Shown here in pieces: positions 21,913-63,332 of a stretch of 64,000 bases of DNA. A model generated the notes under the pieces. That model was not told the origin of the DNA and did no database searches. It saw only the letters and a program-made list of their open reading frames with translations. The stretch is taken from positions 116,544-180,543 of the IMG/VR virus record IMGVR_UViG_3300028608_000007; one strand, written 5' to 3'. The stretch's first letter is position 1; each line of letters begins with the position of its first letter. The DNA comes from a virus. Made by a program: the position numbers and the translations under genes.

Positions 21913-23604
21913 GTGAACCAACCGAATTTTAACCCAGATGAAGTTAAAGGTTACGAAGTCAAACACGTAACTTACACCAAGTCAAACAACCCGGATTCTC
22001 GGGACGATGCGCTGATCATCAAGAAGGTCGCGCACATGAAAAACGGGGATCTGATTCCGTTTGTTGATCTGGAAGTGAACTACAAACGCACGTTCTATTT
22101 GGAGCGTCAGCAGAACTATCAGGAGAAGAAAACTCAACAGAAGCGCAGCAGACTGCAACCGTTCACGTGTACCCAGCGGAACCTGATTCCTGCTATTGGT
22201 CGAGCATTAGGGCGGGGTAGTTTAAAAGGTGGTTTACGGACCATCGCACGCAACCCTTACCTGTACGGTACTGACATCACCAGTGCCACGCTGTACAAGC
22301 AGGACTTCCGCAAAGCGTATCCAGATTGCAACTCCCCTAACCGGGTAGCCGTATTCGACATCGAGACTGATGTGGTCACAGGCGACGGTAGCGAACCGAT
22401 CTGTATGTCGCTCACCTTTAAAGACAAGGTGTATCTGGCGGTTACCAAGAAGTGGATTGGTAGCATTCCAGACTTCGAGAAGAAGGCACACGCAGCAGCG
22501 GACAAGTACCTGAGCGAACACTTCAAAGCTCGGAACATCACCATGGAAGTTCAGGTGGTGGATACTCCGGGTCAAGCGGTGGTGGAAACCTTCAAGCGGG
22601 CTCACGAATGGCAACCAGACTTCGTGTCTGTATGGAACATCAACTTCGACCTTCCAAAGTGCTTGGCGGTGTTGAAGGCTGAGGGGATTGATCCTGCTCA
22701 GGTGTTCTCTGATCCATCCGTACCTGAGGAATACAAGTTCTTCCGTTATAAGGAAGGCAATGCGACCAAGGTAACTGCAACGGGTCGTGTGGATTCCATT
22801 CACCCAGCAGAACGTTGGCACGTAGCCGAATGTCCTGCCAGCTTCTTCTTGATCGACTCGATGTGCGTGTACAAGCGCATTCGTATGGCCAAGCAGAACG
22901 AACCAAGCTACGGCTTGGATGCTGTAATGAAGAAGAACCTCAAGAACCTGGGTAAGCTCAAGTTCGCCGAGGCTGATGCTTATAGCGGTCTGCAATGGCA
23001 CATCTTCATGCAGGAGCACTACAAAGTCGAATACAGCATTTATAACGTCTTCGACTGCATTGGCGTAGAACTGTTAGACGAGAAGATCAAAGACCTACAA
23101 CTGGTTATCTCGACACAATCCAAAGCGTCGGAGTACACCATCTACAACTCGCAACCTAAGCGACTCGTGGATGACTTCTACTTCTTCTGCTTGGAGCGCG
23201 ATTTCGTTCTGGGTTCTTGCTCGGATGAAATGGCGCACGAGTACGACCAGTACGTCACCGACATGAAGGGTTGGATCGTTACGCTACCGTCTCACCAGAC
23301 TGTGGATAACGGGATCAATGTGCTGGAAGAGATGCCAGACGTACGGACCTACATCCGTACGCACGTGGCTGACTTGGACATTGTATCGACTTACCCGAAC
23401 GTACAGGTGATCCTGAACATCTCGCGTGAGACAACTCGTCGTGAGCTGTACAAGATCGCAGGTATCGACGTCCGTACACAACGGATGGCGGGGATCAACC
23501 TGACTGGTGGTCATGTCAACGCTGTAGAGATTGCGTGCTCGATCTACCAAGCACCAAACTTCGACATGTTGCTGGCTGACTTCGAAGCTGAACAGGCGGC
23601 ATAA
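21913..23604 (+). CDS. DNA polymerase family B, N-terminal fragment (exonuclease plus palm motif A)
   Basis: 563 aa from GTG after AAGGAAA. The 3'-5' exonuclease motifs are complete: Exo I FDIETD (D149, E151), Exo II NINFD (D256), Exo III YNVFD (Y377, D381). The palm motif A is present as DIVSTYP (catalytic D489), and the protein stops about 75 residues later with no KxxxNSxxG or DTDS. Those motifs are found in the separate gene at 61104-63332, on the other strand 37 kb away. The two products probably assemble into one polymerase with the active site built from both chains. The stop codon lies inside the terminator-associated GGCATAA sequence. Confidence 0.85.
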   Translation: MNQPNFNPDEVKGYEVKHVTYTKSNNPDSRDDALIIKKVAHMKNGDLIPFVDLEVNYKRTFYLERQQNYQEKKTQQKRSRLQPFTCTQRNLIPAIGRALGRGSLKGGLRTIARNPYLYGTDITSATLYKQDFRKAYPDCNSPNRVAVFDIETDVVTGDGSEPICMSLTFKDKVYLAVTKKWIGSIPDFEKKAHAAADKYLSEHFKARNITMEVQVVDTPGQAVVETFKRAHEWQPDFVSVWNINFDLPKCLAVLKAEGIDPAQVFSDPSVPEEYKFFRYKEGNATKVTATGRVDSIHPAERWHVAECPASFFLIDSMCVYKRIRMAKQNEPSYGLDAVMKKNLKNLGKLKFAEADAYSGLQWHIFMQEHYKVEYSIYNVFDCIGVELLDEKIKDLQLVISTQSKASEYTIYNSQPKRLVDDFYFFCLERDFVLGSCSDEMAHEYDQYVTDMKGWIVTLPSHQTVDNGINVLEEMPDVRTYIRTHVADLDIVSTYPNVQVILNISRETTRRELYKIAGIDVRTQRMAGINLTGGHVNAVEIACSIYQAPNFDMLLADFEAEQAA

Positions 23605-23615
23605 AAGGCAAAAAA

Positions 23616-23641
23616 AAAGAAGGGGTGCAAGCCCCTTCTTT
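23616..23641. terminator. Bidirectional terminator between convergent genes
   Basis: AAAGAAGGGG, loop TGCAAG, CCCCTTCTTT followed by ATGCCGTC on the plus strand and by a run of A-tract-derived T on the minus strand. Separates the polymerase fragment (+) from the 23648-24199 gene (-). Confidence 0.8.
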
Positions 23642-23647
23642 ATGCCG

Positions 23648-24199
23648 TCAATTATCGCGACTGTGATCGAAGCGATCGATCTTGATCTTGACAGGTTCAC
23701 TGAAGTCGTCGGTGTCGTATTCCAACATGACAGACGCAGTTACATTGTCAACCCGGATCGACCACTCCACCCATTCGAAATCAAAGAACACCAACTGGAA
23801 AGTATGGTCCTTATATTTCTCGAAGAAGTTATCCAGCACCGGCATCGGTTCAGGACAGATAAAGCGACGCAGTTCAGCAGCAGGGTAATTCCTGCGCATG
23901 ATCAACGACTTCACCGAAGCCAAGCGCCCTGTGCGGACAGTAGCTAACATCGCCAGTTCGTCAGTCAAGACGTAGTAGTCTTCTCTGCCTTCGCTAGCAC
24001 CCACAGCGTCAACGGTAGCGCGCCAGCCCGGTAGATGTTGCAACAGGCTAACGTGAGAACGAGCAAACACGCGGTCGGCCTCATCCTTACTAACAAGGTC
24101 CTCGCCATCCTCGAAGAAGTCCACTTCGAACTCTTCAAGGGTGGACATGGACATATGCTGCGTACCGGTGTCAGGTTCTAAGCTGACACGCCAGTTCAC
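23648..24199 (-). CDS. Hypothetical acidic protein (183 aa)
   Basis: Start is GTG overlapping the preceding stop as GTGA. Acidic N-terminal half (EFEVDFFEDGEDL), then alpha/beta sequence ending in alternating charged and hydrophobic strands. No motif recognised. Last gene of the minus-strand unit that runs from 26878 or further upstream. Confidence 0.55.
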   Translation of the reverse strand: MNWRVSLEPDTGTQHMSMSTLEEFEVDFFEDGEDLVSKDEADRVFARSHVSLLQHLPGWRATVDAVGASEGREDYYVLTDELAMLATVRTGRLASVKSLIMRRNYPAAELRRFICPEPMPVLDNFFEKYKDHTFQLVFFDFEWVEWSIRVDNVTASVMLEYDTDDFSEPVKIKIDRFDHSRDN

Positions 24200-25161
24200 T
24201 TGATTTCACCGTAGATTGGTTGTTGGAAGTCAGAGTCGTACGCGAACTCACCCGGCAGGTGGTTGTTACCATCGGCCAGTTGGATTTGCAGAACGCGCGG
24301 TTTGTCGCCACGAGTGATGCAAATCACGTTATCGTAGTCTGGGTTCTCCCACTCGACCAGTTGAGCACGGACCGGAGTTTCGTCTGGACGAGCCAGACCC
24401 ACATCAACCACACCCACTTCCAACGGGGTAGTCGACTGAGCCAACAGCAGGATCACGTGGGACAACACGTTGAAAGGCTGAGCCGCCGAGATGAACAGCT
24501 CATAGCCCACCTTGTCCACGAGACCAGTGGTGTAGATGAACTGAGCGACATCCCCGTTGGCTTCTACGTGGTGTGCAGCAAAGCCATGCGCAGCGATCAG
24601 GCGATCAGTACGATCTTGCACCAACGCACGTTCAACCGATTGCATGGTCTTGACCAGTTGATCACGGGTCAGGTCCTTACGAGCAGCCAGACCTGCGAAG
24701 AACAGATCACGAGTAATCGCAGCTTCGACGAACTCACGGGTGTGGAAAGCCGTGGCGATCATTTCTGCTTCGAACTGCTCGATGTACAGCTCAGGTGTGT
24801 TGGCCACCTTGATCAGGAACTCACGCAGGTCAGCGCCAGTGGGGATCAGGTCGTGTACGAAGAACAGGTTACCCACGATCGGGGCATCATTGTATTCTTC
24901 TGGCTCGACGTAGCGACCGTAGTCGTTGTTGACGAGGTACTCGATGAACCCGGTGCAGACTTTCTCTGCTTCTGGGTGCCCGACCTTTTCGAGGTTGGTG
25001 TAGCTGTGCACGCCTTCTGGCAGTTGGATCGACGAGACGTAGATCTCGTACACCTGGTACGGGTTGAACTGCTTGCTGGCCTCAAAACCGAATCCGAAGA
25101 ACGAAGCCATTTGCATTGGGGCCACTTGGAAGATTGCGCGTGCGCCTTTATGTGCTTGCAT
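24196..25161 (-). CDS. Hypothetical protein (321 aa)
   Basis: Not recognised. Soluble alpha/beta with a helical centre (about residues 125-200). No cysteine motif or nucleotide-binding loop. Start at 25161 is preceded by a ribosome-site hairpin. Sits in the accessory minus-strand zone; function cannot be inferred. Confidence 0.6.
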   Translation of the reverse strand: MQAHKGARAIFQVAPMQMASFFGFGFEASKQFNPYQVYEIYVSSIQLPEGVHSYTNLEKVGHPEAEKVCTGFIEYLVNNDYGRYVEPEEYNDAPIVGNLFFVHDLIPTGADLREFLIKVANTPELYIEQFEAEMIATAFHTREFVEAAITRDLFFAGLAARKDLTRDQLVKTMQSVERALVQDRTDRLIAAHGFAAHHVEANGDVAQFIYTTGLVDKVGYELFISAAQPFNVLSHVILLLAQSTTPLEVGVVDVGLARPDETPVRAQLVEWENPDYDNVICITRGDKPRVLQIQLADGNNHLPGEFAYDSDFQQPIYGEIK

Positions 25162-25163
25162 TA

Positions 25164-25664
25164 TTAATGCTCCTTAGCATCAGTAGTTTCGTCGAATTCG
25201 ATATCGATGTGACGAAGAATTTGTAGGAGTTCGTCAAAGACTTCCACGAGGGGACGCTCCTTGACGTATTGCAGGTGCGGGAAGAAGCGAACCACCTTAC
25301 CGTCGGGACGAACAGCCCCAATGTAGTAGATCGCTTCCCAGGAGACGATAGGCATGTTCCCGTGCATCTTCTTCGCCAGCCCCATGGTCCACTTCAAACA
25401 TAGGCCTTGGGAACTAACGCCGAAGATGCTCAGGTTGTGATACCACTCCAGGATAGTGCTGTAGTAGGTGATCTTGTAGCCTTCGAAGGTCCAGGTGTCC
25501 CAGTCGATGGCATCCATGTGCAGCTCCATGAAGAACTGGCTACCTTTAGCCAGCTCCGCATGATAGAACTTGTCGTACAGACGCTTCATGGTCTGACCAG
25601 CTTTGAGACCATTGAACGCCAACAACACGCTACGGATAGCGGTAACGCCGGAGTCCTGGCTCAT
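25164..25664 (-). CDS. Hypothetical protein (166 aa)
   Basis: Rich in Tyr, Trp and His, with an acidic C-terminus (IEFDETTDAKEH). No motif recognised. Coupled to the methyltransferase-like gene by an ATGA overlap, so the two are probably made in fixed ratio and might act together. Confidence 0.6.
   Translation of the reverse strand: MSQDSGVTAIRSVLLAFNGLKAGQTMKRLYDKFYHAELAKGSQFFMELHMDAIDWDTWTFEGYKITYYSTILEWYHNLSIFGVSSQGLCLKWTMGLAKKMHGNMPIVSWEAIYYIGAVRPDGKVVRFFPHLQYVKERPLVEVFDELLQILRHIDIEFDETTDAKEH
25167..25180 (-). promoter_or_regulatory. Ribosome-site hairpin (AAGG loop)
   Basis: Minus strand ATGCT, loop AAGG, AGCAT, then six bases to ATG at 25161. Shine-Dalgarno in the loop. Confidence 0.5.
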
Positions 25665-26317
25665 TTGTCTTTCACCTTCTTGAAGACAGACCAGTTATCA
25701 CGCATACCACTAAAGCGGATATGGTGACGTTCGAGTTCCATGGTCATTTCCCCATCACGCTCGAAAGCAGCATCGAGGTAATAGTAGAACGCATCGTTAC
25801 CGGTGCACCCCATGTACCCTTCACCTTCGTGGATGAGGATCTGACCGACGCGCATCTTCTTGGCAACCTTATGGGCAAAATCGGAACCCATCGGTGGCCA
25901 AGTCATCACGATTACGTCGTATGGATCGAAGTCCACTTCCAGCGCGTCACCACACTCGGAACCGTAGTTGGCGATGTCGTGAGTCCAGTACCAAGAGGAC
26001 CACATGTCCACCGCACGGTAGTCTTTAACGCCACGCTTACGCAGATGCGATGCCATGTAACCAGTACCAGCGCCGACCTCAAGAGTTTTCTTGTCCTTGA
26101 GGAAGTTGGCCAAGTAGTCTGCGTTCTCGGATGTGAGGATGAACCACGCATTGTTACGGACGTAGGCATCACGTTGTTTGGCGTCATGAACGAGTTCGTT
26201 GAAGAAGTCTTCGAACGTTTTGTCTTGGAATTGCTTCCAATCCTGCAAAGACATCAGCGGGAACGGATCAGCGAAGGACTCAGGTACACCAGGTTTCTTG
26301 ACGGACATAACTTGCAT
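25661..26317 (-). CDS. Class I SAM-dependent methyltransferase-like protein
   Basis: 218 aa. Motif I is clear: LEVGAGTGYMA (residues 79-89) in a Rossmann beta-alpha turn, followed by an acidic residue at the end of strand 2 (AVD, 102-104) that would bind the ribose. Motif IV reads VIVMTWPPM (about 136-143), similar to the DPPY/NPPY motif of N6-adenine and related amino-methyltransferases but with TWPP. The final strand carries a His-rich segment. It could modify nucleic acid, a protein or a small molecule; no target-recognition domain is visible. Start at 26317 fits the hairpin ribosome site. Confidence 0.65.
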   Translation of the reverse strand: MQVMSVKKPGVPESFADPFPLMSLQDWKQFQDKTFEDFFNELVHDAKQRDAYVRNNAWFILTSENADYLANFLKDKKTLEVGAGTGYMASHLRKRGVKDYRAVDMWSSWYWTHDIANYGSECGDALEVDFDPYDVIVMTWPPMGSDFAHKVAKKMRVGQILIHEGEGYMGCTGNDAFYYYLDAAFERDGEMTMELERHHIRFSGMRDNWSVFKKVKDK

Positions 26318-26320
26318 ACA

Positions 26321-26334
26321 GTTCTCCTTAGAAC
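26321..26334 (-). promoter_or_regulatory. Ribosome-site hairpin (AAGG loop)
   Basis: Minus strand GTTCT, loop AAGG, AGAAC, three bases before ATG at 26317. Nearly identical to the hairpin at 29295-29308. The preceding gene's stop codon (26334) lies at its edge. Confidence 0.55.
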
Positions 26335-26591
26335 TAAAAATTATCGAACTTGCCCAATTGTTCTTCTAGGCGGGTTCTGTACTTCTCGATATCAAACCAA
26401 TAGAAGTACGGACAGTCAGCCGTTTGGAGCTGACCATGGAAATGTACAACACAAGGGTAGTTTGCTTCTACACCACCGGGCTGGCGAGGGTTGCACTCCT
26501 GACCATAGTGACGTCCGGTGGCTTCACGAAAACCCTGACGGTTACGCACGATGTAAACGCCATAGGTTACTTGGCGGTAAACGTCTCCCAT
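26334..26591 (-). CDS. Small protein, tandem paralogue A (85 aa)
   Basis: Start at ATG 26591 (MGDVYRQVTYGVY) after GGGGAG; longer readings lack a site. The C-terminal half (NYPCVVHF, then FDIEKYRTRLEEQLGKF) matches the next gene upstream (KYPCVVWT, then CLENYKDKLLAQF), so they are tandem paralogues. Small, soluble, Cys- and aromatic-rich. Function unknown. Confidence 0.6.
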   Translation of the reverse strand: MGDVYRQVTYGVYIVRNRQGFREATGRHYGQECNPRQPGGVEANYPCVVHFHGQLQTADCPYFYWFDIEKYRTRLEEQLGKFDNF

Positions 26592-26593
26592 AC

Positions 26594-26878
26594 TCACTCC
26601 CCTTGTACTTCGCGAAACTGTGCCAGCAGCTTGTCTTTGTAGTTCTCCAAGCACATCCAGCGAACGCCCATATCGCCCCAACGATCGAAGTACGTCCACA
26701 CCACACACGGGTATTTCTTCGGGTAGTTGGTTGGGTAGTCCAGAGGTTCGCCTTCCTCTTTGTGTTCACGCTTTACCAGATCGCGATAAGCGGCTTGTGT
26801 ACGACAGAGGTGACCACCGCACATCAAGCGTTTGTAGTTCGGTCGTTCTTGCTTTTCTTCTTTCAAGTTACTTGCCAT
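26594..26878 (-). CDS. Small protein, tandem paralogue B (94 aa)
   Basis: Very charged N-terminal 50 residues including CGGHLC, then the YPCVV domain shared with paralogue A. Three-base gap to that gene. The CxxxxC plus later Cys could bind metal. Function unknown; small paired genes of this kind in phage accessory zones are often host-takeover or anti-defence proteins, but nothing here proves it. Confidence 0.6.
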   Translation of the reverse strand: MASNLKEEKQERPNYKRLMCGGHLCRTQAAYRDLVKREHKEEGEPLDYPTNYPKKYPCVVWTYFDRWGDMGVRWMCLENYKDKLLAQFREVQGE

Positions 26879-26902
26879 TTCCCCAGCCCCTCTAATGGGC
26901 TA

Positions 26903-26928
26903 CAAAAAAGAAGGGGTCCGTAGACCCC
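26903..26928 (-). terminator. Terminator after the 26935 gene
   Basis: Minus strand GGGGTC, loop TACG, GACCCC, then TTCTTTTTTG. It lies between two minus-strand genes, so downstream genes need readthrough or a promoter not recognised here. Confidence 0.7.
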
Positions 26929-26934
26929 GTTAAA

Positions 26935-27321
26935 TTATTTCGAGCGTTCCTCGAACATTGTGAGGACCTTGCCCCTGGTTCTGCGCACCCAACGACCACA
27001 GGGCACTTGCGTACCCGTCTTGTGACCTTGTAGTACACGAGCGCGTTCAGTGTTGAACACCAGAGGCAGAGGATAATACACCCAGCCGTTGTCAATCACC
27101 CGCCGTACCAAGGAGTAGTTATACTCCCGACTCTCCACCTTCTCGTAGATCCCACGTCTACAGTGTTCGAGTTCTTCTTCATTTGCTTCGTCGTAAAGGA
27201 TGGTGGTAACCCCAGTCTCTTCATCGAGGAACTGTTTCTTTCGGAAGATCAGTCCATCGACAGCGTGGCTGTAGATTTTGTCATCCTTCTTTACGATTAC
27301 GCGGTCGGCGGTATCAGTCAT
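26935..27321 (-). CDS. Hypothetical basic protein (128 aa)
   Basis: Basic, with a Tyr-rich centre and an Arg-rich tail (WVRRTRGKV); possible nucleic-acid contact. No family recognised. The start overlaps the stop of the exported-protein gene upstream as ATGA. Confidence 0.55.
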   Translation of the reverse strand: MTDTADRVIVKKDDKIYSHAVDGLIFRKKQFLDEETGVTTILYDEANEEELEHCRRGIYEKVESREYNYSLVRRVIDNGWVYYPLPLVFNTERARVLQGHKTGTQVPCGRWVRRTRGKVLTMFEERSK

Positions 27322-27614
27322 TGGTCTGGAATCCCGTATTGCTCGAGGTACTCAGTGACCTCTTTGTTCATAGCCTTGACTTTCTCGGGCGGGTACTTCT
27401 CGATCGGGAACGCGACCGTGATACCTTCTGGACCGTCGTAGTCAAAGTACTGCATACGGGTTTTGTAGTTGTAGCAGTCGCCTGACGAACAATGGATAAC
27501 CTCCATGTCCTTGACCCAGGCGGGTTGTGCCGAAGCTTTTACTGGTTGAGCACCAACGTTCGCCTGCACCGAAGTACAAGCTACCAGAGCGATTACTGCG
27601 AAAAGAGATTTCAT
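27318..27614 (-). CDS. Small exported protein, possible lipoprotein (98 aa)
   Basis: Start at ATG 27614 (MKSLFAVIALVAC); the ATG three codons upstream is inside the ribosome-site hairpin and too close to it. Residues 1-20 form a signal peptide. LVAC is an acceptable lipobox with Cys as the modified residue; cleavage after AQA or VQA by signal peptidase I is the alternative. The mature part has a CSSGDC pair and is otherwise hydrophilic. Likely periplasmic. It lies in a cluster of five small envelope proteins; lysis or superinfection-exclusion roles are conceivable. Confidence 0.6.
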   Translation of the reverse strand: MKSLFAVIALVACTSVQANVGAQPVKASAQPAWVKDMEVIHCSSGDCYNYKTRMQYFDYDGPEGITVAFPIEKYPPEKVKAMNKEVTEYLEQYGIPDQ

Positions 27615-27618
27615 TCTT

Positions 27619-27634
27619 GTCATTCCTTAATGAC
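27619..27634 (-). promoter_or_regulatory. Ribosome-site hairpin (AAGG loop)
   Basis: Minus strand GTCATT, loop AAGG, AATGAC, a perfect six-pair stem directly before ATG at 27614. Confidence 0.55.
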
Positions 27635-27651
27635 TATTTCTTTTTGGGGTC

Positions 27652-27921
27652 TTACGCGTTTAGCAGACCTGCGTCAGAGAGGTCTTTACGGATCATGCGA
27701 TACACGATCCAGGTTACAACCACCACGAAGAACAACACCCACACCTTGAAGATGGCGAGCGCCAGCGCGATGAAGAAGAACCCAGTTGGCGAGAGGTTCT
27801 GGACACCCCACAGTGCAACCTTGGTCCAGAAGGTTTCTTTCTTGGTCAGGATGTATTCACGGCTGGCTTTCCAGACCACGAACAAACCGAACACCACCAA
27901 CACCAGAATCAATACGCCCAT
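27652..27921 (-). CDS. Small membrane protein, two helices (89 aa)
   Basis: Hydrophobic helices at about residues 2-17 and 45-72, with a basic aromatic loop between. No signal-peptidase site. Part of the envelope-protein cluster 27.3-28.6 kb. Holin-like topology is possible but not diagnostic. Confidence 0.55.
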   Translation of the reverse strand: MGVLILVLVVFGLFVVWKASREYILTKKETFWTKVALWGVQNLSPTGFFFIALALAIFKVWVLFFVVVVTWIVYRMIRKDLSDAGLLNA

Positions 27922-27924
27922 GTT

Positions 27925-28134
27925 TCACTCCTTGTCTTTGATAGGTTTGTAACAGCACACCCCGTCGAACTCATAACGCTGAGTAGGATAGGACTTTTGA
28001 CGCGGCGGCTCGGGAGGATCATTCCTGTGAATAAACGCATGAACACCCACACCGATACCACCTACCACAATACCAATGATGCACAGTCCGATCAAACCAG
28101 CGATCATCATCATTGCTTCGTCTTGTGCACGCAT
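27925..28134 (-). CDS. Small single-helix membrane protein (69 aa)
   Basis: Start at ATG 28134, which follows GGAGG; the GTG two codons upstream overlaps that site. One Gly/Ile-rich helix at about residues 9-32, then a Pro-rich hydrophilic tail with CC near the end. Function unknown; member of the envelope cluster. Confidence 0.55.
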   Translation of the reverse strand: MRAQDEAMMMIAGLIGLCIIGIVVGGIGVGVHAFIHRNDPPEPPRQKSYPTQRYEFDGVCCYKPIKDKE

Positions 28135-28156
28135 GTACACCTCCTAGAAGATGTAC
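28135..28156 (-). promoter_or_regulatory. Ribosome-site hairpin (large loop)
   Basis: Minus strand GTACA stem, loop with CTAGGAGG, TGTAC stem, touching ATG at 28134. Shine-Dalgarno in the loop. Confidence 0.4.
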
Positions 28157-28437
28157 TTCACGACTTTGACGTTAGCCTGTGTTGCCACAGGGTACAGATC
28201 CTTACGGTGCCACGTTTGCGTAACACTTTCAGAATAGTTGTTAAGGTGTTGCACTTCTTCCTGAGAGGCCGCAGGACGCTTCTCAACGTGCGGCAAGAAG
28301 ATTGCAGTCAACACCAAGGCTACTACGAAAACAAGCACCAGCCAGCGCAGGAAAGAGTTCTGGCGGGCAAGTTCACGCTGGTCCACGTTTTCCAGATCGT
28401 GAATCAGCTTTGCGTTCTTTTCAGCTTCCTTATCCAT
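28144..28437 (-). CDS. Small membrane protein with N-terminal coiled region (97 aa)
   Basis: Charged N-terminus (1-28, helical), one membrane helix (about 31-48), then a hydrophilic C-terminal domain. If the N-terminus is cytoplasmic, the C-terminal part faces the periplasm. Start overlaps the preceding stop as TAATG. An inner-membrane partner for the neighbouring exported proteins is possible. Confidence 0.55.
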   Translation of the reverse strand: MDKEAEKNAKLIHDLENVDQRELARQNSFLRWLVLVFVVALVLTAIFLPHVEKRPAASQEEVQHLNNYSESVTQTWHRKDLYPVATQANVKVVKYIF

Positions 28438-28637
28438 TACTTACCCACCCACACTTTAGCTTCGGTTTGTTCGAACGACCCGTCTTCCAAGATGACGGTT
28501 TGTTTCACAGTGCACCAGCCAGCTTCACACTGAGCAGGCTCAGCTTTGAAGTCCTTGAGTTGGTACATAGCGAATGCCGAAGAGCAGATACCGGCGAGGG
28601 CGATAGCGGCGATCAGGGCTTTAACGAATTTGTTCAT
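28437..28637 (-). CDS. Small exported protein (66 aa)
   Basis: Signal peptide at residues 1-23 (MNKFVKALIAAIALAGIC, then SSAFA) with a signal peptidase I site after AFA. The mature part of about 43 residues has a CEAGWC pair and resembles the CSSGDC protein at 27318-27614 in size and layout. Probably periplasmic. First gene of the envelope cluster. Confidence 0.6.
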   Translation of the reverse strand: MNKFVKALIAAIALAGICSSAFAMYQLKDFKAEPAQCEAGWCTVKQTVILEDGSFEQTEAKVWVGK

Positions 28638-28646
28638 GGTTCTATT

Positions 28647-28658
28647 TCCTTCTGAGGA
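28647..28658 (-). promoter_or_regulatory. Ribosome-site hairpin (TCCT-CAGA-AGGA)
   Basis: Minus strand TCCT, loop CAGA, AGGA, nine bases before ATG at 28637. Same element as at 30463, 31176 and 32309. Confidence 0.55.
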
Positions 28659-28670
28659 TTTGAGTTTAGA

Positions 28671-29291
28671 TTAGTGGCGCGACTTTGGATTGATGTCGAT
28701 GCCGGGCAAACGGGATACTGCGGTGAGTAAACGATGTACGTGGGAAACCTGAATGCTGACCCTAGAAGGACCCCTGCCGATTTTCCCACCACGAGTGAGT
28801 TGATCTACTGCTTTGTTAACAGCGATAACCAAACCTTGAATGAACTCGCGCTCTTCTTTCATTGGTTGGAAACGCATTGGGCACAATCTGACGAATTCTT
28901 CAACAGTCCAGCCCATGATGAAGATTTCGCCATTCCTGATGACTACTTCTTCAGCAGGATCAGTCTGCAAGTACTTGAAGTACAGGACTGTTGCGTTGTC
29001 AGTCTTTTGCTTAGGTGGTGGGTAAACTATGTCTCGAAGTTCTTCGATAGTGTTTGGTCGAATCGCTTCAATCAGTTTCATTACCGACGCGGATGGCAAA
29101 GGCTCACGACGCAATTGGTTCCCATGATCAAGTGCGAGTTTGATTTTGAACCCAGTTGGGGAATGTGCAATTGTGAAAGGCGGGTGATGATCTACAGCAA
29201 CGATCGTGTAGTGACTCGCGTTTGAGTACTCCAGATTGTTGTCGTAGTTGTAAATCAGTGCATGGATAAGAAGTCTGACGGCTTCTCGCAT
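28671..29291 (-). CDS. Hypothetical protein, first gene behind an early promoter (206 aa)
   Basis: Not recognised. Soluble, alpha/beta, with VDHHPPF near residue 34 and a basic C-terminal third (RGGKIGRGPSRV) that might contact nucleic acid. It is the first gene leftward of the candidate early promoter at 29342, so it and the exported-protein cluster are probably expressed at the start of infection. Confidence 0.6.
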   Translation of the reverse strand: MREAVRLLIHALIYNYDNNLEYSNASHYTIVAVDHHPPFTIAHSPTGFKIKLALDHGNQLRREPLPSASVMKLIEAIRPNTIEELRDIVYPPPKQKTDNATVLYFKYLQTDPAEEVVIRNGEIFIMGWTVEEFVRLCPMRFQPMKEEREFIQGLVIAVNKAVDQLTRGGKIGRGPSRVSIQVSHVHRLLTAVSRLPGIDINPKSRH

Positions 29292-29294
29292 GAT

Positions 29295-29308
29295 GTTCTC
29301 CTAAGAAC
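29295..29308 (-). promoter_or_regulatory. Ribosome-site hairpin (TAGG loop)
   Basis: Minus strand GTTCT, loop TAGG, AGAAC, three bases before ATG at 29291. Confidence 0.55.
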
Positions 29309-29341
29309 GAAAGGTTAGGGACCGATATAACTCAGTCTATT

Positions 29342-29365
29342 CACCAGTGTAATATGTATCTGAGA
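29342..29365 (-). promoter_or_regulatory. Candidate early promoter
   Basis: Minus strand TCTCAGATACATATTACAC then TGGTG. Matches the seven-member set (core ATATTAC). Transcription would run left through 28671-29291 and the envelope cluster. Confidence 0.65.
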
Positions 29366-29398
29366 TTTTTTTGTTTCCGATTTACACGTATGTAGTGA

Positions 29399-55751: not shown

Positions 55752-55756
55752 AGTTT

Positions 55757-55772: not shown

Positions 55773-55775
55773 GAA

Positions 55776-55793
55776 GGGGGACTCAAGTCCCCC
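55776..55793 (-). terminator. Terminator after the beta' N-terminal gene
   Basis: Minus strand GGGGGACT, TG, AGTCCCCC, then TTCCCTTTT. Confidence 0.65.
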
Positions 55794-55798
55794 AGAGG

Positions 55799-57241
55799 TT
55801 AGCGGCCATGGTGAATGAAGTTGGCGAGAGTTGCGATGATAGGTGCAGGAAGCGATACGTGTCCAGAGATTGCCCTGGGGTTACGCAGATCCAGTACACC
55901 GTTATGCGGGGCCAACGGGTCCAACTTGAGAAGCGTCTTTTCGTCCAGGATCACAATGCCGTTCAAGGCGTCACCGTCAAAGTCAGCGTTCATACCGGAA
56001 AGGATGTTCACCGACGGACTGATGGTGTTGATCTTGGGGTCTTTCTTGACACTGCGGATGTACAGGCGCTGAGCCGAGAGACGGGTCAACGTCGGGTTTC
56101 GCTGGAAGATTACCGCAATACCGCCACGGGGTCCTTCAGCAATCAGTTCCTCGAACAGCTCATCCAGCAGTGGGTGATACCGCAGGGTGTGCTCATAAAG
56201 GAACTTGTTGATTTCGTTCGGGCTGAACAATTGGTCAGTACCCGGAACACAACGGCGCAGTAGCTTGCTGGTCAGGTGAACCTTCAAGGTCATCACCGCC
56301 ATTGGCCACGGCATGTGCAGGTCTTCGTAGTGGTGCGGGTCAGACAAGGACGAGATCACACCACGGAACGAGTAGTTCACTCGCGAACCGAAGATGTGTT
56401 TGCGGTACCATCCTGGCTTACCGCCCAGTTGCCCTGCAATGAATGGTGCATAGTAAGCCACCAACATATTCAGAGCTTTGATTGTCATCACCTCGATCTG
56501 CCGAGCTTTCAGCGGAGTCGGGGAGTTTTCAATCGAACTGAATGTCCGCATCGCGTTGATCGCCGGAGTCATCCCTGTATCGGCATAAGTACCGGTAGCC
56601 GTGTTCTCCGTGATAAAGGAGATCCGACTTGGACAGGGGATATACTTCGAGAAGATCGCATGGCGATACATCTGAATGAATAGCAGCGTGTCATCCATCT
56701 GCTGCTGGTTCTTGTTGTTCGGGAGGATTTCCCGCAAGAACAAGTTCATCAGGTCATCGAAATGCCTGTAGAACGTATTAATGCCTCGACCGATGTTGAG
56801 CCCTTTCAGGTACTGCAACACGTTTTGAGCATCGTTGTTGGGAGGAATGTAGGACGGATTTGTAATCCAGTCCAGCAAGTTCGTTCCCTTGTACGCGAAG
56901 ATCGGCTTCAATACATGCAGAGCCCAGGGGTTGATCAATGCATCAATGCCTCTCGGCGCAGCGATCCACAACAAGGACTCCAGAGGTCGTTCGGTAACCG
57001 ACATACAGGGAAACCCGCAGTGGTCACACACAACACCAACGTTGTGTTCGTACTTGACTCTCTTACACTCACATGACGGCACGACGTCTAAGGTGTCACC
57101 CTCATAACGCGTCATGATCATTTGGTTCAGTCGTTCCCGATCCAGCTCGGTAGTAACATCGAAGTCGTTGAGGATCACGGGAGTTGTTGTCAACTTGTTG
57201 AACAACTCGTCATGACTCACGATTTCCGCTTCTACGCCCAT
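55799..57241 (-). CDS. RNA polymerase beta' N-terminal subunit with catalytic NADFDGD (phiKZ gp55-like)
   Basis: 480 aa. NADFDGD at residues 418-424 supplies the three aspartates (D420, D422, D424) that hold the catalytic Mg. SRVNYSFRGVISS corresponds to beta' KRVDYSGRSVI. The N-terminal zinc ribbon is present: C57, C59, C72, C75. The chain ends about 56 residues after the active site, where the C-terminal fragment begins in another gene. It lies next to the candidate shell-protein gene, as gp54 and gp55 do in phiKZ, so I assign it to the non-virion RNA polymerase. Ribosome site CAGGAG. Confidence 0.85.
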   Translation of the reverse strand: MGVEAEIVSHDELFNKLTTTPVILNDFDVTTELDRERLNQMIMTRYEGDTLDVVPSCECKRVKYEHNVGVVCDHCGFPCMSVTERPLESLLWIAAPRGIDALINPWALHVLKPIFAYKGTNLLDWITNPSYIPPNNDAQNVLQYLKGLNIGRGINTFYRHFDDLMNLFLREILPNNKNQQQMDDTLLFIQMYRHAIFSKYIPCPSRISFITENTATGTYADTGMTPAINAMRTFSSIENSPTPLKARQIEVMTIKALNMLVAYYAPFIAGQLGGKPGWYRKHIFGSRVNYSFRGVISSLSDPHHYEDLHMPWPMAVMTLKVHLTSKLLRRCVPGTDQLFSPNEINKFLYEHTLRYHPLLDELFEELIAEGPRGGIAVIFQRNPTLTRLSAQRLYIRSVKKDPKINTISPSVNILSGMNADFDGDALNGIVILDEKTLLKLDPLAPHNGVLDLRNPRAISGHVSLPAPIIATLANFIHHGR

Positions 57242-57267
57242 GGGCTACTCCTGAAGTGACGGACATA

Positions 57268-57296
57268 AAAAGAAAAGGGGACCGAAGTCCCCTTTT
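57268..57296 (-). terminator. Strong terminator after the candidate shell-protein gene
   Basis: Minus strand AAAAGGGGAC, loop TTCG, GTCCCCTTTT, then CTTTTTATG. Partial termination here would let the shell gene be made at far higher level than the RNA polymerase gene behind it. Confidence 0.85.
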
Positions 57297-57321
57297 ACTC
57301 ATTGCAACAACCTACCGCCGA

Positions 57322-59340
57322 TTAGCGGTTCCAGGTCCCGGTGAAGGGAGAGCTGAACAGGCGCGAGCCTTGTTGCTGACCGCCACCGTAGTTGAAGAAG
57401 CCACCAACGTTGTTGGCAACCAGGTGGTTGAGGTCGTAGCCGCCGCGCTGGGACAGGACGTTGTTGTCGTCCAGGCCTTTGGCAGGACGCACGTTCAGAC
57501 CGCAACGTACGATTGCTTCGGACAGCGCTTCCAGGAACCCGTTGTCGAACGACACGCGACGAGCGAAGCCCTTGACGTGGATTTCCGAGGCCAGGAGCTG
57601 GCGCAGGATTTCCTTGCGCTGAGCCAGGCGGATTTCCAGAGGGACCTGCACGTTGCGGTGGGTTTCTTCCCAGGCTTCGACCAGTTTCGGGTTGGTCTTG
57701 CCAGCGAGGTTCAGGATGGCCAGGTAGTCGATTTCACGCAGGTCACGACGATTGCCTTCGCGATCGTAGTAGAAGCCCAGGTGAATGCGGTCTTGGTCGT
57801 CGTAGCACACCGGCTTGCTGGCGTCGAACAGTTGCTGGAAGTGACCCATGGTCAGGTTGTTGGCTGCTTGCAGGATGGTCAGACGCGCATTCTCGTCGCC
57901 GTTGGCGGCCGCGATGTAGGTCTGGTGAATCCAGGACAGCTCGCCAACCTCGGCGATGTCGAGGGTGAAGATCAGCTTCTGGGCGATCAGGGTGTTGATG
58001 AGCTGACGCATTTCGTTGTCACCGAAGTCGGCGGAACGAGTCGGCAGTGCATCAGGCTTGGCGTTCGGATCACCAGTCAGGTTGACTTCGTAACCGACCG
58101 CACCGATGTCTTTCAGATCGACGTCGGTAGCCTTGCCCTTGTTGGCGCGCCAGGTGCCGGTGTACAGGCCGTTGCGGTTCAGACCGAAAGCGGTGGACAG
58201 GGTCAGCAGTTGCAGTTCCATGTTCACGGCGTCGGTCAGGGTGTCGACCGAAGTCATCACCAGACGCGGCTGGTACATCTGAGTCGGCATCATTTGCTGC
58301 TGGCCGAACATACCGAAGGCGTTCTGCTGCGGCTGGAAGCCAGCTTGAGCCGGTTGGTACATCAGGTCAACGTACGCACCCACGCGGGTGAGCTGACGGG
58401 TTTGTTGCAGGCTGAACTGCGAGTCAGCTTGGGACTGCGCGGACATGGTGACGATGATGTCTTCACGTACCGGCATGCCGACCAGGTCTTCACCGTGGGC
58501 ACGAGTGAACTCGACACGAGCGCTCAGTTGGTCACCAGCGCCGACTTCACCCAGGGTGAACGGTTCTTCGGTGCCGCCGAGTTGGCTGTCCATGATGGTG
58601 TAGCAGGCCTGGGTGCTGTTGTGCAGCAGGCGGTTGAAGCGGTTCTCGGTGCTGACTTCAGCTTCGGCCGGAATCACGATGCCACCGGCGTCGTGGATCT
58701 GAGCGTTCACGCCGAAGCTGTTGATGACGAACTGCTCCAGAACTTGCCAGTACGACTTGTTCAGGTAGATGTCACCAGGCACGATGTCGACTTCGACGGT
58801 GGTGCCGCCCAGGTTGACACTGTTCGGGTCCAGCGGCGCACCGCTCGATTCGATCAGCATGCTGTAGACCGCGATGTGGTCTTGGCCCTGGAAGTTTTCG
58901 TGGTAGCAGACCAGGATGCTGGAGAAGGTCACTTTGGACTGGTTGTTGTCCAGTACCAGGATGGTGAACTCTTTCTTCTGCTGTTCGGTCAGCACTTTGG
59001 CTGCACGTTCTTTCAGGCCGGTCTGGATGGTCTGAACGTCTTCACCGGACATGTTCCGAGGAACAGGACGACGGTGGTTGGCGTTGACGTCGAGGACCGA
59101 ACGGCCACGGCTGCCGACGCGGGAGTTTTGCTGGTTCATCTGAGCACCTGCGTTGAAAGGTTGTTGCGGTTGAGCGTTGCCACCGTTCGGCTGCTGTTGC
59201 TGACCGGCCGGTTGTTGTGGTTGCTGGGCTTGTTCAGCGCCCTGCGGATTCATGCCTGCTTTCAGCATGGCGTCTGCCATTGCGCTGTTCGCTGGTTGGT
59301 TCCCCTGACTCTGGCCAGGTTGATTGCGTTTGACGGACAT
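57322..59340 (-). CDS. chmA: Candidate phage-nucleus shell protein, chimallin (ChmA)
   Basis: 672 aa from ATG 59340 after AAGGAA. Residues 1-90 are Gln/Asn/Pro/Gly rich and probably disordered; the rest is a large folded alpha/beta region, ending in a Gly/Gln/Arg-rich tail, which fits a self-assembling protein with flexible ends. It has the strongest codon bias of the window, its own early-type promoter with an 80-base leader, a strong terminator, and lies directly before the beta' N-terminal gene, the same arrangement as gp54 (ChmA) and gp55 in phiKZ. ChmA builds the protein shell around phage DNA in the host cytoplasm. Sequence identity to known chimallins was not tested, so this rests on position and expression signs. 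Confidence 0.6.
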   Translation of the reverse strand: MSVKRNQPGQSQGNQPANSAMADAMLKAGMNPQGAEQAQQPQQPAGQQQQPNGGNAQPQQPFNAGAQMNQQNSRVGSRGRSVLDVNANHRRPVPRNMSGEDVQTIQTGLKERAAKVLTEQQKKEFTILVLDNNQSKVTFSSILVCYHENFQGQDHIAVYSMLIESSGAPLDPNSVNLGGTTVEVDIVPGDIYLNKSYWQVLEQFVINSFGVNAQIHDAGGIVIPAEAEVSTENRFNRLLHNSTQACYTIMDSQLGGTEEPFTLGEVGAGDQLSARVEFTRAHGEDLVGMPVREDIIVTMSAQSQADSQFSLQQTRQLTRVGAYVDLMYQPAQAGFQPQQNAFGMFGQQQMMPTQMYQPRLVMTSVDTLTDAVNMELQLLTLSTAFGLNRNGLYTGTWRANKGKATDVDLKDIGAVGYEVNLTGDPNAKPDALPTRSADFGDNEMRQLINTLIAQKLIFTLDIAEVGELSWIHQTYIAAANGDENARLTILQAANNLTMGHFQQLFDASKPVCYDDQDRIHLGFYYDREGNRRDLREIDYLAILNLAGKTNPKLVEAWEETHRNVQVPLEIRLAQRKEILRQLLASEIHVKGFARRVSFDNGFLEALSEAIVRCGLNVRPAKGLDDNNVLSQRGGYDLNHLVANNVGGFFNYGGGQQQGSRLFSSPFTGTWNR

Positions 59341-59418
59341 CTCGTGTTCCTTTTCATTGGGGTGGGCACTACGACACACCATTTGCCTATGATCTATTTA
59401 TTTACATCGGCATGATGT

Positions 59419-59442
59419 CACAAGGGTAATATGTGGCTCAAA
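59419..59442 (-). promoter_or_regulatory. Candidate early promoter of the shell-protein gene
   Basis: Minus strand TTTGAGCCACATATTACCC then TTGTG. Perfect core ATATTAC. About 80 bases before ATG at 59340. Confidence 0.65.
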
Positions 59443-59497
59443 TTGCTTCGAATCAAATACTACCCCTGCGGGTTACAAAGATCATGCGCCCATAACG

Positions 59498-59517
59498 CTA
59501 AGTGCCGTAGCACCTAG
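59498..59517 (-). terminator. Stem-loop after the 59561 gene
   Basis: CTAAGTGC, loop CGTA, GCACCTAG with one mismatch; minus-strand continuation is CGTTATGGG. Weak terminator candidate. The rest of 59341-59560 holds the promoter and no gene. Confidence 0.4.
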
Positions 59518-59560
59518 TTGAGAGCATTCTCCTATAACATAGTGCAGTGTATGTAAGAAA

Positions 59561-59857
59561 TTACTTTATCCTCACATTGCTGATGAGGGAGTACACGTTA
59601 AGCCCTGCCGCCTTAGCGGCTTTCCGAGCTTCCATCTCGGCAGGTAGTTCGAAGGTTTGTTTGGACTCGAAAACAAACTCCGTGATATCGTGGCCACGGT
59701 TATTGCTGATCCCCAGTACAACTTTACGCTCGAACTTCTTCTTGGCTTTAACAGCGGCCTTCACCGGTTCCGGTGCAGCAGGAACTTGACCGGAAGACCG
59801 GGCAATCTCCAAACGCAGTGCTGCTTCGAAATCCGAGAGTTCTTTGCTAACAACCAT
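59561..59857 (-). CDS. Small basic protein before the shell-protein gene (98 aa)
   Basis: Lys/Ala-rich centre (about 30-50, KAAVKAKKKFERK) between a helical start and a short alpha/beta end. It could bind nucleic acid. No family recognised. It has its own early-type promoter and ribosome-site hairpin, so it is likely made at once on infection. Confidence 0.6.
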   Translation of the reverse strand: MVVSKELSDFEAALRLEIARSSGQVPAAPEPVKAAVKAKKKFERKVVLGISNNRGHDITEFVFESKQTFELPAEMEARKAAKAAGLNVYSLISNVRIK

Positions 59858-59860
59858 GGC

Positions 59861-59876
59861 TCAACTCCTAAGTTGA
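59861..59876 (-). promoter_or_regulatory. Ribosome-site hairpin (TAGG loop)
   Basis: Minus strand TCAACT, loop TAGG, AGTTGA, three bases before ATG at 59857. Perfect six-pair stem. Confidence 0.55.
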
Positions 59877-59910
59877 AAAAAGTTTATAAGACAGATTACC
59901 TAGTGTCTGT

Positions 59911-59934
59911 CACGTGGATATTATGTATTTGAAA
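59911..59934 (-). promoter_or_regulatory. Candidate early promoter
   Basis: Minus strand TTTCAAATACATAATATCC then ACGTG. Core ATAATAT is a variant. About 55 bases before ATG at 59857. Confidence 0.5.
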
Positions 59935-59966
59935 TTCCTTTTAATCAACTCTAAAGGGCCGCCCCA

Positions 59967-61067
59967 ATGTACAGCCTTTTCAATGAACCGATCTGGGGTA
60001 CGCAAGGTGCTAGCATTACCTTCCCCAAGTATCAGCGCGCTATTCAGGGGCTGCGCCAGAATCTCGAGAAGGTGATCGAGTACAACCGTACCTATCCACG
60101 TGCTGTTGATAGTGGTCACTTCCTCGTGAAATTGCTGCAATCCCTTAACGTACCATTATCCATGGACGTCAACATTTACAGGGACCGGGTTGAGGAAGTC
60201 GCTGAGGGTGCCAGCATGGCCTTCAACATGACCTCTTCATTATACAGGGGTCGGGTGTTCAGTCCAGGGGTTTTCTACGGTCCCGGTTCCTACGAGGTTG
60301 TGATTGCCCACTCTGAGGAATTCGACCTGCGCGGGATTGAGGATAACTGGGAAGACCTGTGCCCAGTGACTTTCCTTACTCACCCCAAGACAGACCTCGG
60401 TATGGATACTCCTATGGGTTTCCAGACCAACGGCGAAGAAGGCCTGTCGGTTATCTTGGTAAACATTCCGATGCTGGCGGTTCAGTACCGCATGTGGCGC
60501 ATCCGTGAATGGCACCAGAACAATGAAGCACAGCGGACGATCATGCAGTTCATGTCGTCGTATCCCCTGAACAACGCTTTGCACTCCCAGTTGGATTTGG
60601 CTATCCTCAATCGGTTCATGGCGATTTATCGTGGTGATCCTCGGGGGATGTCCATGATCCGTAAACCATACACCCTCACTCGTTGGGAAGCGGAACTGGA
60701 CTTTGGGCTGGACCAATACGCAGAAGACTTGCAGAAACGCAAGTATACCTTCGATCACTTCCTTGCTGTGTTCAAAGGTGTGTCGTCATGGACCCTGAGA
60801 GACGCTATACGCATTCCTCGCATGGTACCGACCCGTCAGGTTACCTGGGCGCTTGCAATGTCCAGAGCGCGTCTGGTGGACTTCCTGTTGGATTGGACCA
60901 AAGAGAACAATGTCGACCGCAACAAGGGTTACTGTAACGATATCCAATTGGAAACGTCGCGGTTACTCAACGACAGCGCTCTACGCAGCTCCCTTCCACG
61001 CTGGGCATATCCGGCATGGGAAGACCTCTTTAAAGAGATCGTCTCCAAAGCTAAAAGCGTCCGCTAG
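59967..61067 (+). CDS. Hypothetical protein, lone plus-strand gene (366 aa)
   Basis: Not recognised. Rich in aromatic residues, Arg and Met; helical C-terminal half (about 230-366) with a basic end. No membrane helix or catalytic motif. It is divergent from the 59561 gene and convergent with the polymerase C-terminal fragment. Ribosome site AAAGGG. Structural or replication roles are both possible. Confidence 0.6.
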   Translation: MYSLFNEPIWGTQGASITFPKYQRAIQGLRQNLEKVIEYNRTYPRAVDSGHFLVKLLQSLNVPLSMDVNIYRDRVEEVAEGASMAFNMTSSLYRGRVFSPGVFYGPGSYEVVIAHSEEFDLRGIEDNWEDLCPVTFLTHPKTDLGMDTPMGFQTNGEEGLSVILVNIPMLAVQYRMWRIREWHQNNEAQRTIMQFMSSYPLNNALHSQLDLAILNRFMAIYRGDPRGMSMIRKPYTLTRWEAELDFGLDQYAEDLQKRKYTFDHFLAVFKGVSSWTLRDAIRIPRMVPTRQVTWALAMSRARLVDFLLDWTKENNVDRNKGYCNDIQLETSRLLNDSALRSSLPRWAYPAWEDLFKEIVSKAKSVR

Positions 61068-61069
61068 AG

Positions 61070-61099
61070 AAACGGGGAAGCCGCAAGGCCTCCCCGTTT
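61070..61099. terminator. Bidirectional terminator between convergent genes
   Basis: AAACGGGGA, mismatch, GCC, loop GCAA, GGC, mismatch, TCCCCGTTT, then CCCTTTATGCCGC. The TAA stop of the polymerase fragment is inside TTTATGCC. Confidence 0.8.
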
Positions 61100-61103
61100 C
61101 CCT

Positions 61104-63332
61104 TTATGCCGCGGCAGACGCTGGAACAAAGTCCGAAACCAACTTGGTATTGTTGTCGTTAGACAAGAACACGCCGAGCGATTCCAAGATCAGATAGAAC
61201 GGTCGGACTGTAGAGTAGACCAGTTTACGAATGTTCATTGCTGACAATACTTCTTTTGGCAGACCCGTCAACTCCACAACATCCTTAGGCAGCAGCAACG
61301 TGGTAGCGTTGGTTTTGCCTGCGTAGGTTGCCATCAGAGTTTCTTTGATCTGTGGATCTTCGATACCTTCCAACCATTGTTGCAGTGCCGTTTTGTTTGG
61401 CAGGTCGAGGGATACCTTGATCGCAGAGTACGGAGGCTTAGGGGCTTCTCCGTATTTTGGACGGAACACACGCTCCCACATGAGGTAGTGTTGGTACGGA
61501 GATTGACCTGGGTTGACGTATGCCGCCGGGTCTTTCACCGAAGTCCGCGCCAAGTAGGTAGACTCAGCACGCATCACAGAACCAATGATGCCGTGTTCGA
61601 TATCCGCCACACGTTGCATGATTTCTGTAATACGGATCTTCTTGCCTTCGATTACGGTGTCCATGATCTCACACATGGTCGACGTAACCTGCTTCATGAT
61701 CGCTGGTGGACAGTTGGAGTCTTTGAGGTAAACCCCTTTGATCTCTTCATCCAGTTCAGCAAACACGTTACCTTCTTTGGCAGCCTTGTAGGCGTAGTAG
61801 TGCTTAGCCATCGAAGTCAGCGAGAACACCGAGAATGCAAACTCGTTCTTCATCGCCAATACGTTCAGCTTCTCAGGTACCACACCGAGTGTAGTCGAGA
61901 GCATAGCCAGAACGTGAATGATCGACTGCGTTGCCAGGTAAACCATGGTGTAATCCACGGCAAACGCGGTTTCGCTAAAGTCAATCTTGCCGGTGTACCA
62001 CTCCACCCAGTTCTGTACGGTAAAGATCGTAGAGTCTGTGTCGGAGGTAATTGCTACGTGGCGGACCGAGTCACGAATCCATGCAACCGAAGCTGGCATG
62101 TTGTCCGATACCCAGAACGCTTTGATCAGGTATTGGTATTCGTTCAATACCGCATGGATGTTCTTGATGGTTGCCCCGATCAAGCAGTAGTTCGCAGGGT
62201 TAACTTCCAGCAAACGACCCAGACCCAAGCCTTGCAGCTCCTTAGCACACAGGAGGCTCACAAACGCTTTCAAGTCCGCATCCATACCCTTGACATAGGT
62301 CTTGGCTTCATCCAGCTCCAGAGGCACCTCAGCCTTCATAGAGAGACGAGCCATGAACACACGCATCGGACCATCGTTGAACTTTGCCAAGTGCCAGCAA
62401 TCGCCGACATAAGCAAAGGCTGCCCGTTGCAGATCGTTCATACCCTCAACCAACTTACGGATCTCTTCGACCTGACGTTTGTTGGTCCAGTAGTGATGAG
62501 TGGAGTACAGGATCAACTCCATAACTTCATCTACAGTCGGCGCACGGAAACCGTACAGCGACATGGCTTTCTCGATCAACTCGTAGTCAACATGACCAAT
62601 GATGCTGACGATGTTCGCCTTCACTACGTCAGGGCACCAGTAGTGACGGTTGCCTGCCAAGAACTTCTCGTTGTTGGCGTTACCCAGGCTGGTGGCTACA
62701 CGACAGGTCGAAGTCAGACTCGAGTGAGCAGACTTGTTGTGCAGGATCGTGGAGGTCGACGCTTGTGCCCCGGACAGACTGTTGTTCGCAATCTTGTACG
62801 TGGTTTGTTCGTTCTCCTTAAGTTCTGCCAGTTCTTCCATCTGTACAGCATGGCGGCGGAACTTCTTGACTGCTTCAACATCCCCGGCTTTCTCAGCCTC
62901 ATCTGCTTTCAGATTGGATTCTTGTTGCTCCATCTGCGCATTGTGACCTTCCTTCTTTACAGCACCCCGGCCCACAATGTTACCGGTGATGTATTCCGAC
63001 AGTAGAGAAGGGATCACGTCCGGGTGTTCGTACACAGTCATGGACGGTGCAAACAACCAGTTGTTGTCCTTGATGTCCTTGAGGTAAGTCGAGTAAGTGA
63101 TCTCCATACGCTCACGGTCACCGACTTTGTTGCGGTGCAGGCAGAACAGAGCTGGGTCTTTGATCTCGAATTTACCACCAGGACCTGTCACACGGTGAAT
63201 GTACCCTTGACAGTCTTCCAACGGCTTCCCCGTACGAACATGCAAAAAGATCGCCATGTCTCGACGGTAGTTAGCCAGAATATCTAGGTCGCGCTTATAA
63301 GCGGACGCTGGCTTGATGAAATGGTTTTCCAT
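61104..63332 (-). CDS. DNA polymerase family B, C-terminal fragment (motifs B and C)
   Basis: 742 aa from ATG 63332 (MENHFIKP) after GGGAG. Motif B, KIANNSLSG (K180, N184, G188), binds the incoming nucleotide; motif C, ITSDTDSTIF (D431, D433), holds catalytic Mg. There is no exonuclease domain and no motif A. Those lie in the 21913-23604 product. The 120-160 region is a long charged helix insertion. The chain continues 300 residues past motif C, as a thumb domain would. Together the two chains contain every family B motif once, so they should form one enzyme. Confidence 0.85.
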   Translation of the reverse strand: MENHFIKPASAYKRDLDILANYRRDMAIFLHVRTGKPLEDCQGYIHRVTGPGGKFEIKDPALFCLHRNKVGDRERMEITYSTYLKDIKDNNWLFAPSMTVYEHPDVIPSLLSEYITGNIVGRGAVKKEGHNAQMEQQESNLKADEAEKAGDVEAVKKFRRHAVQMEELAELKENEQTTYKIANNSLSGAQASTSTILHNKSAHSSLTSTCRVATSLGNANNEKFLAGNRHYWCPDVVKANIVSIIGHVDYELIEKAMSLYGFRAPTVDEVMELILYSTHHYWTNKRQVEEIRKLVEGMNDLQRAAFAYVGDCWHLAKFNDGPMRVFMARLSMKAEVPLELDEAKTYVKGMDADLKAFVSLLCAKELQGLGLGRLLEVNPANYCLIGATIKNIHAVLNEYQYLIKAFWVSDNMPASVAWIRDSVRHVAITSDTDSTIFTVQNWVEWYTGKIDFSETAFAVDYTMVYLATQSIIHVLAMLSTTLGVVPEKLNVLAMKNEFAFSVFSLTSMAKHYYAYKAAKEGNVFAELDEEIKGVYLKDSNCPPAIMKQVTSTMCEIMDTVIEGKKIRITEIMQRVADIEHGIIGSVMRAESTYLARTSVKDPAAYVNPGQSPYQHYLMWERVFRPKYGEAPKPPYSAIKVSLDLPNKTALQQWLEGIEDPQIKETLMATYAGKTNATTLLLPKDVVELTGLPKEVLSAMNIRKLVYSTVRPFYLILESLGVFLSNDNNTKLVSDFVPASAAA

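Follow-up and report, generated by a model that had tools for sequence, protein, structure and literature searches.

We analysed a stretch of 64,000 nucleotides of viral DNA (positions 116,544 to 180,543 of IMG/VR record IMGVR_UViG_3300028608_000007; hereafter the window), which carries two genes matching different parts of a family B DNA polymerase (PolB). We refer to their products as the N chain and the C chain:

21913..23604, plus strand: N chain of the split PolB, with an N-terminal domain, a 3'-5' exonuclease domain and a first palm segment containing motif A
61104..63332, minus strand: C chain of the split PolB, with the fingers, the rest of the palm and the thumb (Pfam family divDNApol)

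The genes lie 37 kb apart on opposite strands, and an earlier note on this DNA had both open reading frames (ORFs), their spacing and their orientation right. Both genes are full-length and conserved. The N-chain ORF encodes 563 residues from a GTG start, with a good ribosome-binding-like stretch (aaggaaa) upstream. The C-chain ORF extends over 61104..63359 (minus strand) and encodes 751 residues when counted from an upstream GTG, or 742 residues from the ATG at 63332, which has gggag just 5' of it.

Motifs of the two chains and their conservation

The positions of the motifs, read from the re-translated window sequence, are as follows:

22357..22365, plus strand: Exo I, D149-I-E151 (DIE), from re-translation and conservation
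22636..22650, plus strand: Exo II, N242-INF-D246 (NINFD), from re-translation and conservation
23041..23055, plus strand: Exo III, Y377-NVF-D381 (YNVFD), from re-translation and conservation
23377..23397, plus strand: motif A, D489-IVST-Y494-P495, with D489 aligned to T4 D408 and RB69 D411
62955..62969, minus strand: fingers, R122-xxx-K126, aligned to the RkkaKk stretch of yeast Pol delta
62769..62795, minus strand: motif B, K180-IANNSL-S187-G188, with Ser in place of the usual Tyr
62034..62042, minus strand: motif C, D431-T-D433, from re-translation and conservation
61797..61805, minus strand: K510-H-Y512 of the C chain, from an alignment of residues 477-556 with T4 701-781 (E-value 3.6)

By analogy only, we assume that R122 and K126 in the fingers of the C chain contact the triphosphate, and we take K510-H-Y512 to be the likely counterpart of the KKRY motif that precedes the thumb.

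Conservation was assessed by aligning 50 N-chain and 54 C-chain sequences from IMG/VR; the sets were de-duplicated and limited to uninterrupted ORFs, which excluded 13 of the 84 N loci. D149, E151, N242, Y377, D381, D487, D489, Y494 and P495 are invariant in all 50 N chains and D246 is kept in 49 of them, while K180, N184, S187, G188, D431, T432 and D433 are invariant in all 54 C chains. In these alignments, the conservation of the catalytic residues exceeds chance by far. The motifs expected of family B (Exo I-III and motifs A, B and C) are all present, spread over two chains and with motif B in a Ser variant. The motif A pattern Dxx[SAG]xYP is found in 50/50 N rows and in 0/54 C rows, and neither DTDS nor the motif B pattern is found in any of the 50 N rows. 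Because the motif patterns divide so cleanly between the N and C rows, we consider the break between motifs A and B to be real. The earlier note had given Exo I-III and motif A, without motifs B and C, to the 21913-23604 product, and KxxxNSxSG and DTDS, without motif A, to the 61104-63332 product; re-translation and the two alignments confirm both statements.

This division bears on a view expressed in a passage of Iyer et al., according to which the C chain needs no partner to be a full polymerase, and the N chain acts as a stand-alone exonuclease recruited to the replisome for proofreading. The C chain does carry motifs B and C, but the motif A pattern belongs to the N chains and is absent from the C chains, D487, D489, Y494 and P495 of the N chain do not vary, and the likeness of the C chain to the RB69 polymerase starts at about RB69 residue 451, past motif A. 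We regard this explanation as improbable.

The motif B pattern of the family is KxxxN[SA]xSG, and in 54/54 C chains Ser stands where NSxYG usually has Tyr; in RB69, this Tyr (Y567) matters for base selection. K180 and D431 of the C chain are separated by 251 residues, whereas the corresponding spacing in T4 and RB69 gp43 is much shorter. In the structural model of the C chain, about 240 mostly helical residues (residues 189-430; window ~62043-62768, minus strand) lie between the two motifs. A passage in a review (PMC7824862) suggests that such an insert between motifs B and C may replace a sliding clamp.

Profile matches and structural comparison

The N chain matches phrog_3011 (DNA polymerase) with an E-value of 5.5e-205, and the C chain matches phrog_2927 (E-value 5.7e-245) and PF20286 (divDNApol; E-value 2.7e-243, 809.7 bits against a cut-off of 25.7). 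Both chains also match phrog_262, a full-length PolB profile of 856 positions that matches E. coli and archaeal control genomes as well: the N chain is aligned to profile positions 260-426 (E-value 2.8e-7) and the C chain to positions 443-562 (E-value 6.2e-9), and they are the sole two phrog_262 matches within their own record of 180,543 bases. Consecutive matches of this kind are the hallmark of a single polymerase divided between motifs A and B. The Pfam family DNA_pol_B (PF00136) has no match in the record, and the assignment to PolB therefore rests on phrog_262, the fold and the motifs. Among 28 large related records, PF00136 matches are found in 16, all 16 of them within the C chain and only 3 above the cut-off. 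Comparison of the two chains by hhalign gave no distant homology that would point to a duplication (probability 1), and a single-sequence search of the PDB found no relative of the N chain and, for the C chain, only an irrelevant match at an E-value of 1.3.

The model of the N chain has a mean predicted local distance difference test score (pLDDT) of 84.2, with 448-465, 483-512 (which includes motif A) and 531-535 as the only segments below 50; the model of the C chain has a mean pLDDT of 89.3 and no stretch below 50. Poor confidence around motif A is what one would expect if the palm were completed by the other chain. Foldseek matched the N model to RB69 gp43 with an E-value of 5.9e-14, and VIA-align placed N residues 12-439 on RB69 1-386 with a Z-score of about 28 when the low-confidence parts were left out (untrimmed alignments of the N model to RB69 extend further, but across the unreliable segment). 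For the C model, the Foldseek E-value against RB69 gp43 is 3.4e-4, and VIA-align placed residues 87-732 on RB69 451-892 (Z-score 12.4, root-mean-square deviation (rmsd) 5.1 over 405 residues). D489 of the N chain is aligned to T4 D408 by hhalign (E-value 2.6e-8), and also to RB69 D411, where the NIS-ET stretch that follows is common to both. Going by the models, both halves have the PolB fold, with a strong match for the N half and a modest one for the C half.

The two halves in related phages

According to tblastn, the N chain is found in 278 phage records and the C chain in 280, all at less than 60% identity. The N-chain homologue in phiKZ is 082 (42% identity over 96%) and the C-chain homologue is 050, and both are annotated as DNA polymerase. 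To see how often the halves occur together, we used 39 records from 80 C loci and 50 records from 74 N loci, picked for long or non-repeated contigs. The N half was found in 35/39 records selected for the C half, and the C half in 40/50 records selected for the N half; all 14 records in which the other half was missed are shorter than 150 kb, and 63/63 related records of at least 150 kb hold both. The layout of the window recurs in the relatives: in 17 of the 18 contigs with both halves located, the halves are on opposite strands and separated by about 23-44 kb along the shorter route (three contigs were assumed to be circular), and in the eighteenth they are on the same strand and 121-146 kb apart.

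No fused form (an ORF matching both chains) was found among the ORFs of the 84 N and 84 C loci. One N-chain ORF of 950 residues (L025:5938-8787) is extended at its C-terminus by an acidic stretch of about 375 residues, a length not reached in the other 70 uninterrupted N ORFs; it was rejected as a fused form, since the extension is not the C chain. C-chain homologues are also found in four bacterial metagenome-assembled genome contigs (L174-L177; 7.8-245 kb), which are probably binned phage genomes. Two of these contigs were inspected for a fused form and rejected, having C-chain-sized ORFs of 736 and 715 residues. In three records (G045, G046 and G058), the C-chain ORF has 822 residues and is matched by PF20286 in two parts with about 130 bases and no stop between them, i.e. 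an in-frame insertion.

The N-chain gene is interrupted in 13 of the 84 N loci (L038, L056, L064, L067, L069, L070, L077, L078, L080, L082, L083, L085 and L090), the break often falling exactly on the codons of motif A (after residue 487) or else at residue 455. In eight of these 13 genes, the gap holds a match to an Rfam group I intron, and two of the eight have two introns. PhiPA3 (G024) likewise has a divided N gene, with the break close to where motif A lies.

Split PolB genes that are not adjacent and carry split inteins are known (described in part of PMC4104785), and the two halves could likewise be joined post-translationally into one contiguous polymerase, as has been proposed for Nanoarchaeum equitans PolB. 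No intein match was found in Pfam or NCBIfam at E-values up to 10, and because the family-wide alignments of both chains run nearly up to the break (with a median of 12 residues past the N-chain match and 11 stop-to-stop residues ahead of the C-chain match), the tails at the break are too short for intein halves. We therefore consider joining by inteins very improbable.

Searches of the 180.5 kb record gave no match to PF00136, PolA (PF00476) or PolIII alpha (PF07733). A separate complete PolB elsewhere in the genome, which the earlier note had named as one observation that would speak against a split enzyme, was thus sought by profile and not found in this incomplete record. Relatives that are 96-97% identical to the record lie in contigs of 240 and 244 kb, of which two (G001 and G002) also gave no PF00136 match, and no PolB other than the C chain was found by PF00136 in the 28 large related records. 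One could still take the two ORFs for fragments of a decayed polymerase, with another enzyme replicating the genome; what favours this is only the split itself, together with the incompleteness of the record. It is already contradicted by the invariant catalytic residues, by the presence of both halves in all the related records of at least 150 kb and by the failure of these searches to reveal another polymerase, and we give it next to no credence.

A probable single polymerase from two chains

In our view, the two genes very probably encode an obligate heterodimer, a divergent replicative polymerase of family B related to that of T4, the active site of which would be completed in trans without an intein. 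The two chains have different domain content, divide the motifs between them, give complementary matches to a single-chain PolB, are conserved and co-occur. From this we infer that they bind each other, form a joint active site and act in replication. A single PolB divided in the palm between motifs A and B, where the earlier note had put the break, is argued for by the complementary profile matches, the complementary coverage of RB69 and the alignment of D489; the low-confidence motif A segment, the co-occurrence of the halves, and the lack of a fused ORF and of a second polymerase in the searches above point in the same direction.

The N chain would contribute its N-terminal domain, the exonuclease for proofreading and the palm's first strand, which carries D489 of motif A and Y494, and the C chain would bring the fingers, motif B, D431 and D433 of motif C, and the thumb. 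The chains would associate post-translationally, without an intein, and this would complete in trans the sheet of the palm together with the two-metal site and the deoxynucleoside triphosphate pocket; by itself, neither chain should polymerise. As reported in part of PMC12571901, antisense knock-down of phiKZ 050 and of phiKZ 082 each cut phage yield, which fits two needed subunits.

Several points weigh against this interpretation. Taken by itself, the C chain matches the fold only modestly (a TM of about 0.2-0.3 in Foldseek, with a large rmsd), and unrelated ESCRT-III helices reach Z-scores of 10-11 on its fingers helices. Comparison of the C profile with T4 gp43 by hhalign gave a probability of 9 and an alignment that is apparently out of register and was not used, and hmmsearch of the PDB with the C profile gave only Pol delta at an E-value of 0.19, with motif B aligned to KISANSVYG of the yeast enzyme at that E-value only. 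The case for the C half is made by several moderate lines of evidence combined. A shallow alignment or disorder could also account for the low pLDDT around motif A, and the record is a fragment, of which about a quarter may be missing. Finally, a passage of PMC12571901 reports Pf4 prophage induction on knock-down of phiKZ 082 and proposes a role of 082 in Pf4 suppression; a table in the same paper nevertheless labels 082 as DNA polymerase.

The surroundings of the C-chain gene give further context. One gene there lies outside the polymerase and marks the genome as being of the nucleus-forming phiKZ type:

57322..59382, minus strand: chimallin, the phage nucleus shell protein (PF25677, E-value 2.3e-61; phrog_4795, E-value 2.7e-116)

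Between the C-chain and chimallin genes, as in phiKZ, lies a gene (59967-61067, plus strand) whose product is homologous to the structural head protein phiKZ 052 (27% identity, E-value 9e-37).

The two-gene arrangement is already described, and the present locus adds a further phiKZ-type example. Published work already credits phiKZ, OBP and SPN3US with a 'split subunit DNA polymerase' (a passage of PMC5105663 uses the term for phiKZ), which answers the question, raised in the earlier note, of whether the split was on record for phiKZ relatives. In these phages (phiKZ 050 and 082; SPN3US gp18 and gp44; OBP) there are the same two full-length chains with the same division, encoded by genes that are far apart, and the phiKZ neighbourhood 050-054 is partly common to the window (the 052-like and chimallin genes). 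The window differs in that its chains are less than 60% identical to those of every deposited phage listed, in that its two genes are on opposite strands whereas those of phiKZ are on the same strand, and in that no homologue of phiKZ 049 (SH3; PHIKZ049) was recognised adjoining the C-chain gene. Compared with gp43 of T4 and RB69, the domain order, Exo I-III, motifs A and C and the fold of both halves are alike, but gp43 is a single chain and has Tyr in motif B, whereas here there are two chains and Ser.

To call such a split unusual for a replicative polymerase, as the earlier note did, is fair, though PolB likewise consists of two polypeptides in Methanobacteriales and Nanoarchaeum equitans (part of PMC4104785). 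These archaeal enzymes belong to a different polymerase lineage, and the Nanoarchaeum halves carry intein parts, none of which was seen here. In T4-related phages, introns, inteins and homing endonucleases have repeatedly targeted PolB genes (gene 43 introns and the split intein of MIJ3); there the element lies between adjacent pieces, whereas here the pieces are 37 kb apart on opposite strands.

A passage in PMC7544198 assigns phiKZ to a divergent PolB cluster and treats it as homologous to, though diverged from, the T4 enzyme; the T4 affinity found here agrees with this. Passages of PMC7824862 describe a long helical insert and an exonuclease whose gene lies elsewhere and which may join as a standalone protein, and favour the polymerases of nucleocytoplasmic large DNA viruses (NCLDV) as the closest. 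By its sequence, the exonuclease chain also carries motif A, and would be more than the stand-alone proofreader of the 2021 review.

We also put forward a broader idea, tentatively and with more doubt than belief: a whole lineage of replicative polymerases may consist of obligate two-gene heterodimers with the metal site formed in trans, no intein being involved, and with the exonuclease chain as an essential half and not the detachable proofreader of the 2021 review, and the meeting of the chains (possibly only inside the phage nucleus) could switch replication on.

Since the arrangement is known, the finding itself alters little. What becomes testable, through D489, is the claim that the 'exonuclease' gene of the phiKZ type supplies part of the active site for polymerisation, a point on which the cited passages are silent or take another view. 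If this is true, the C chain alone (divDNApol, often taken as 'the' phiKZ-type polymerase) would be inactive, both chains would have to enter the phage nucleus, and the phenotypes of phiKZ 082 loss would have to be read as replicase loss.

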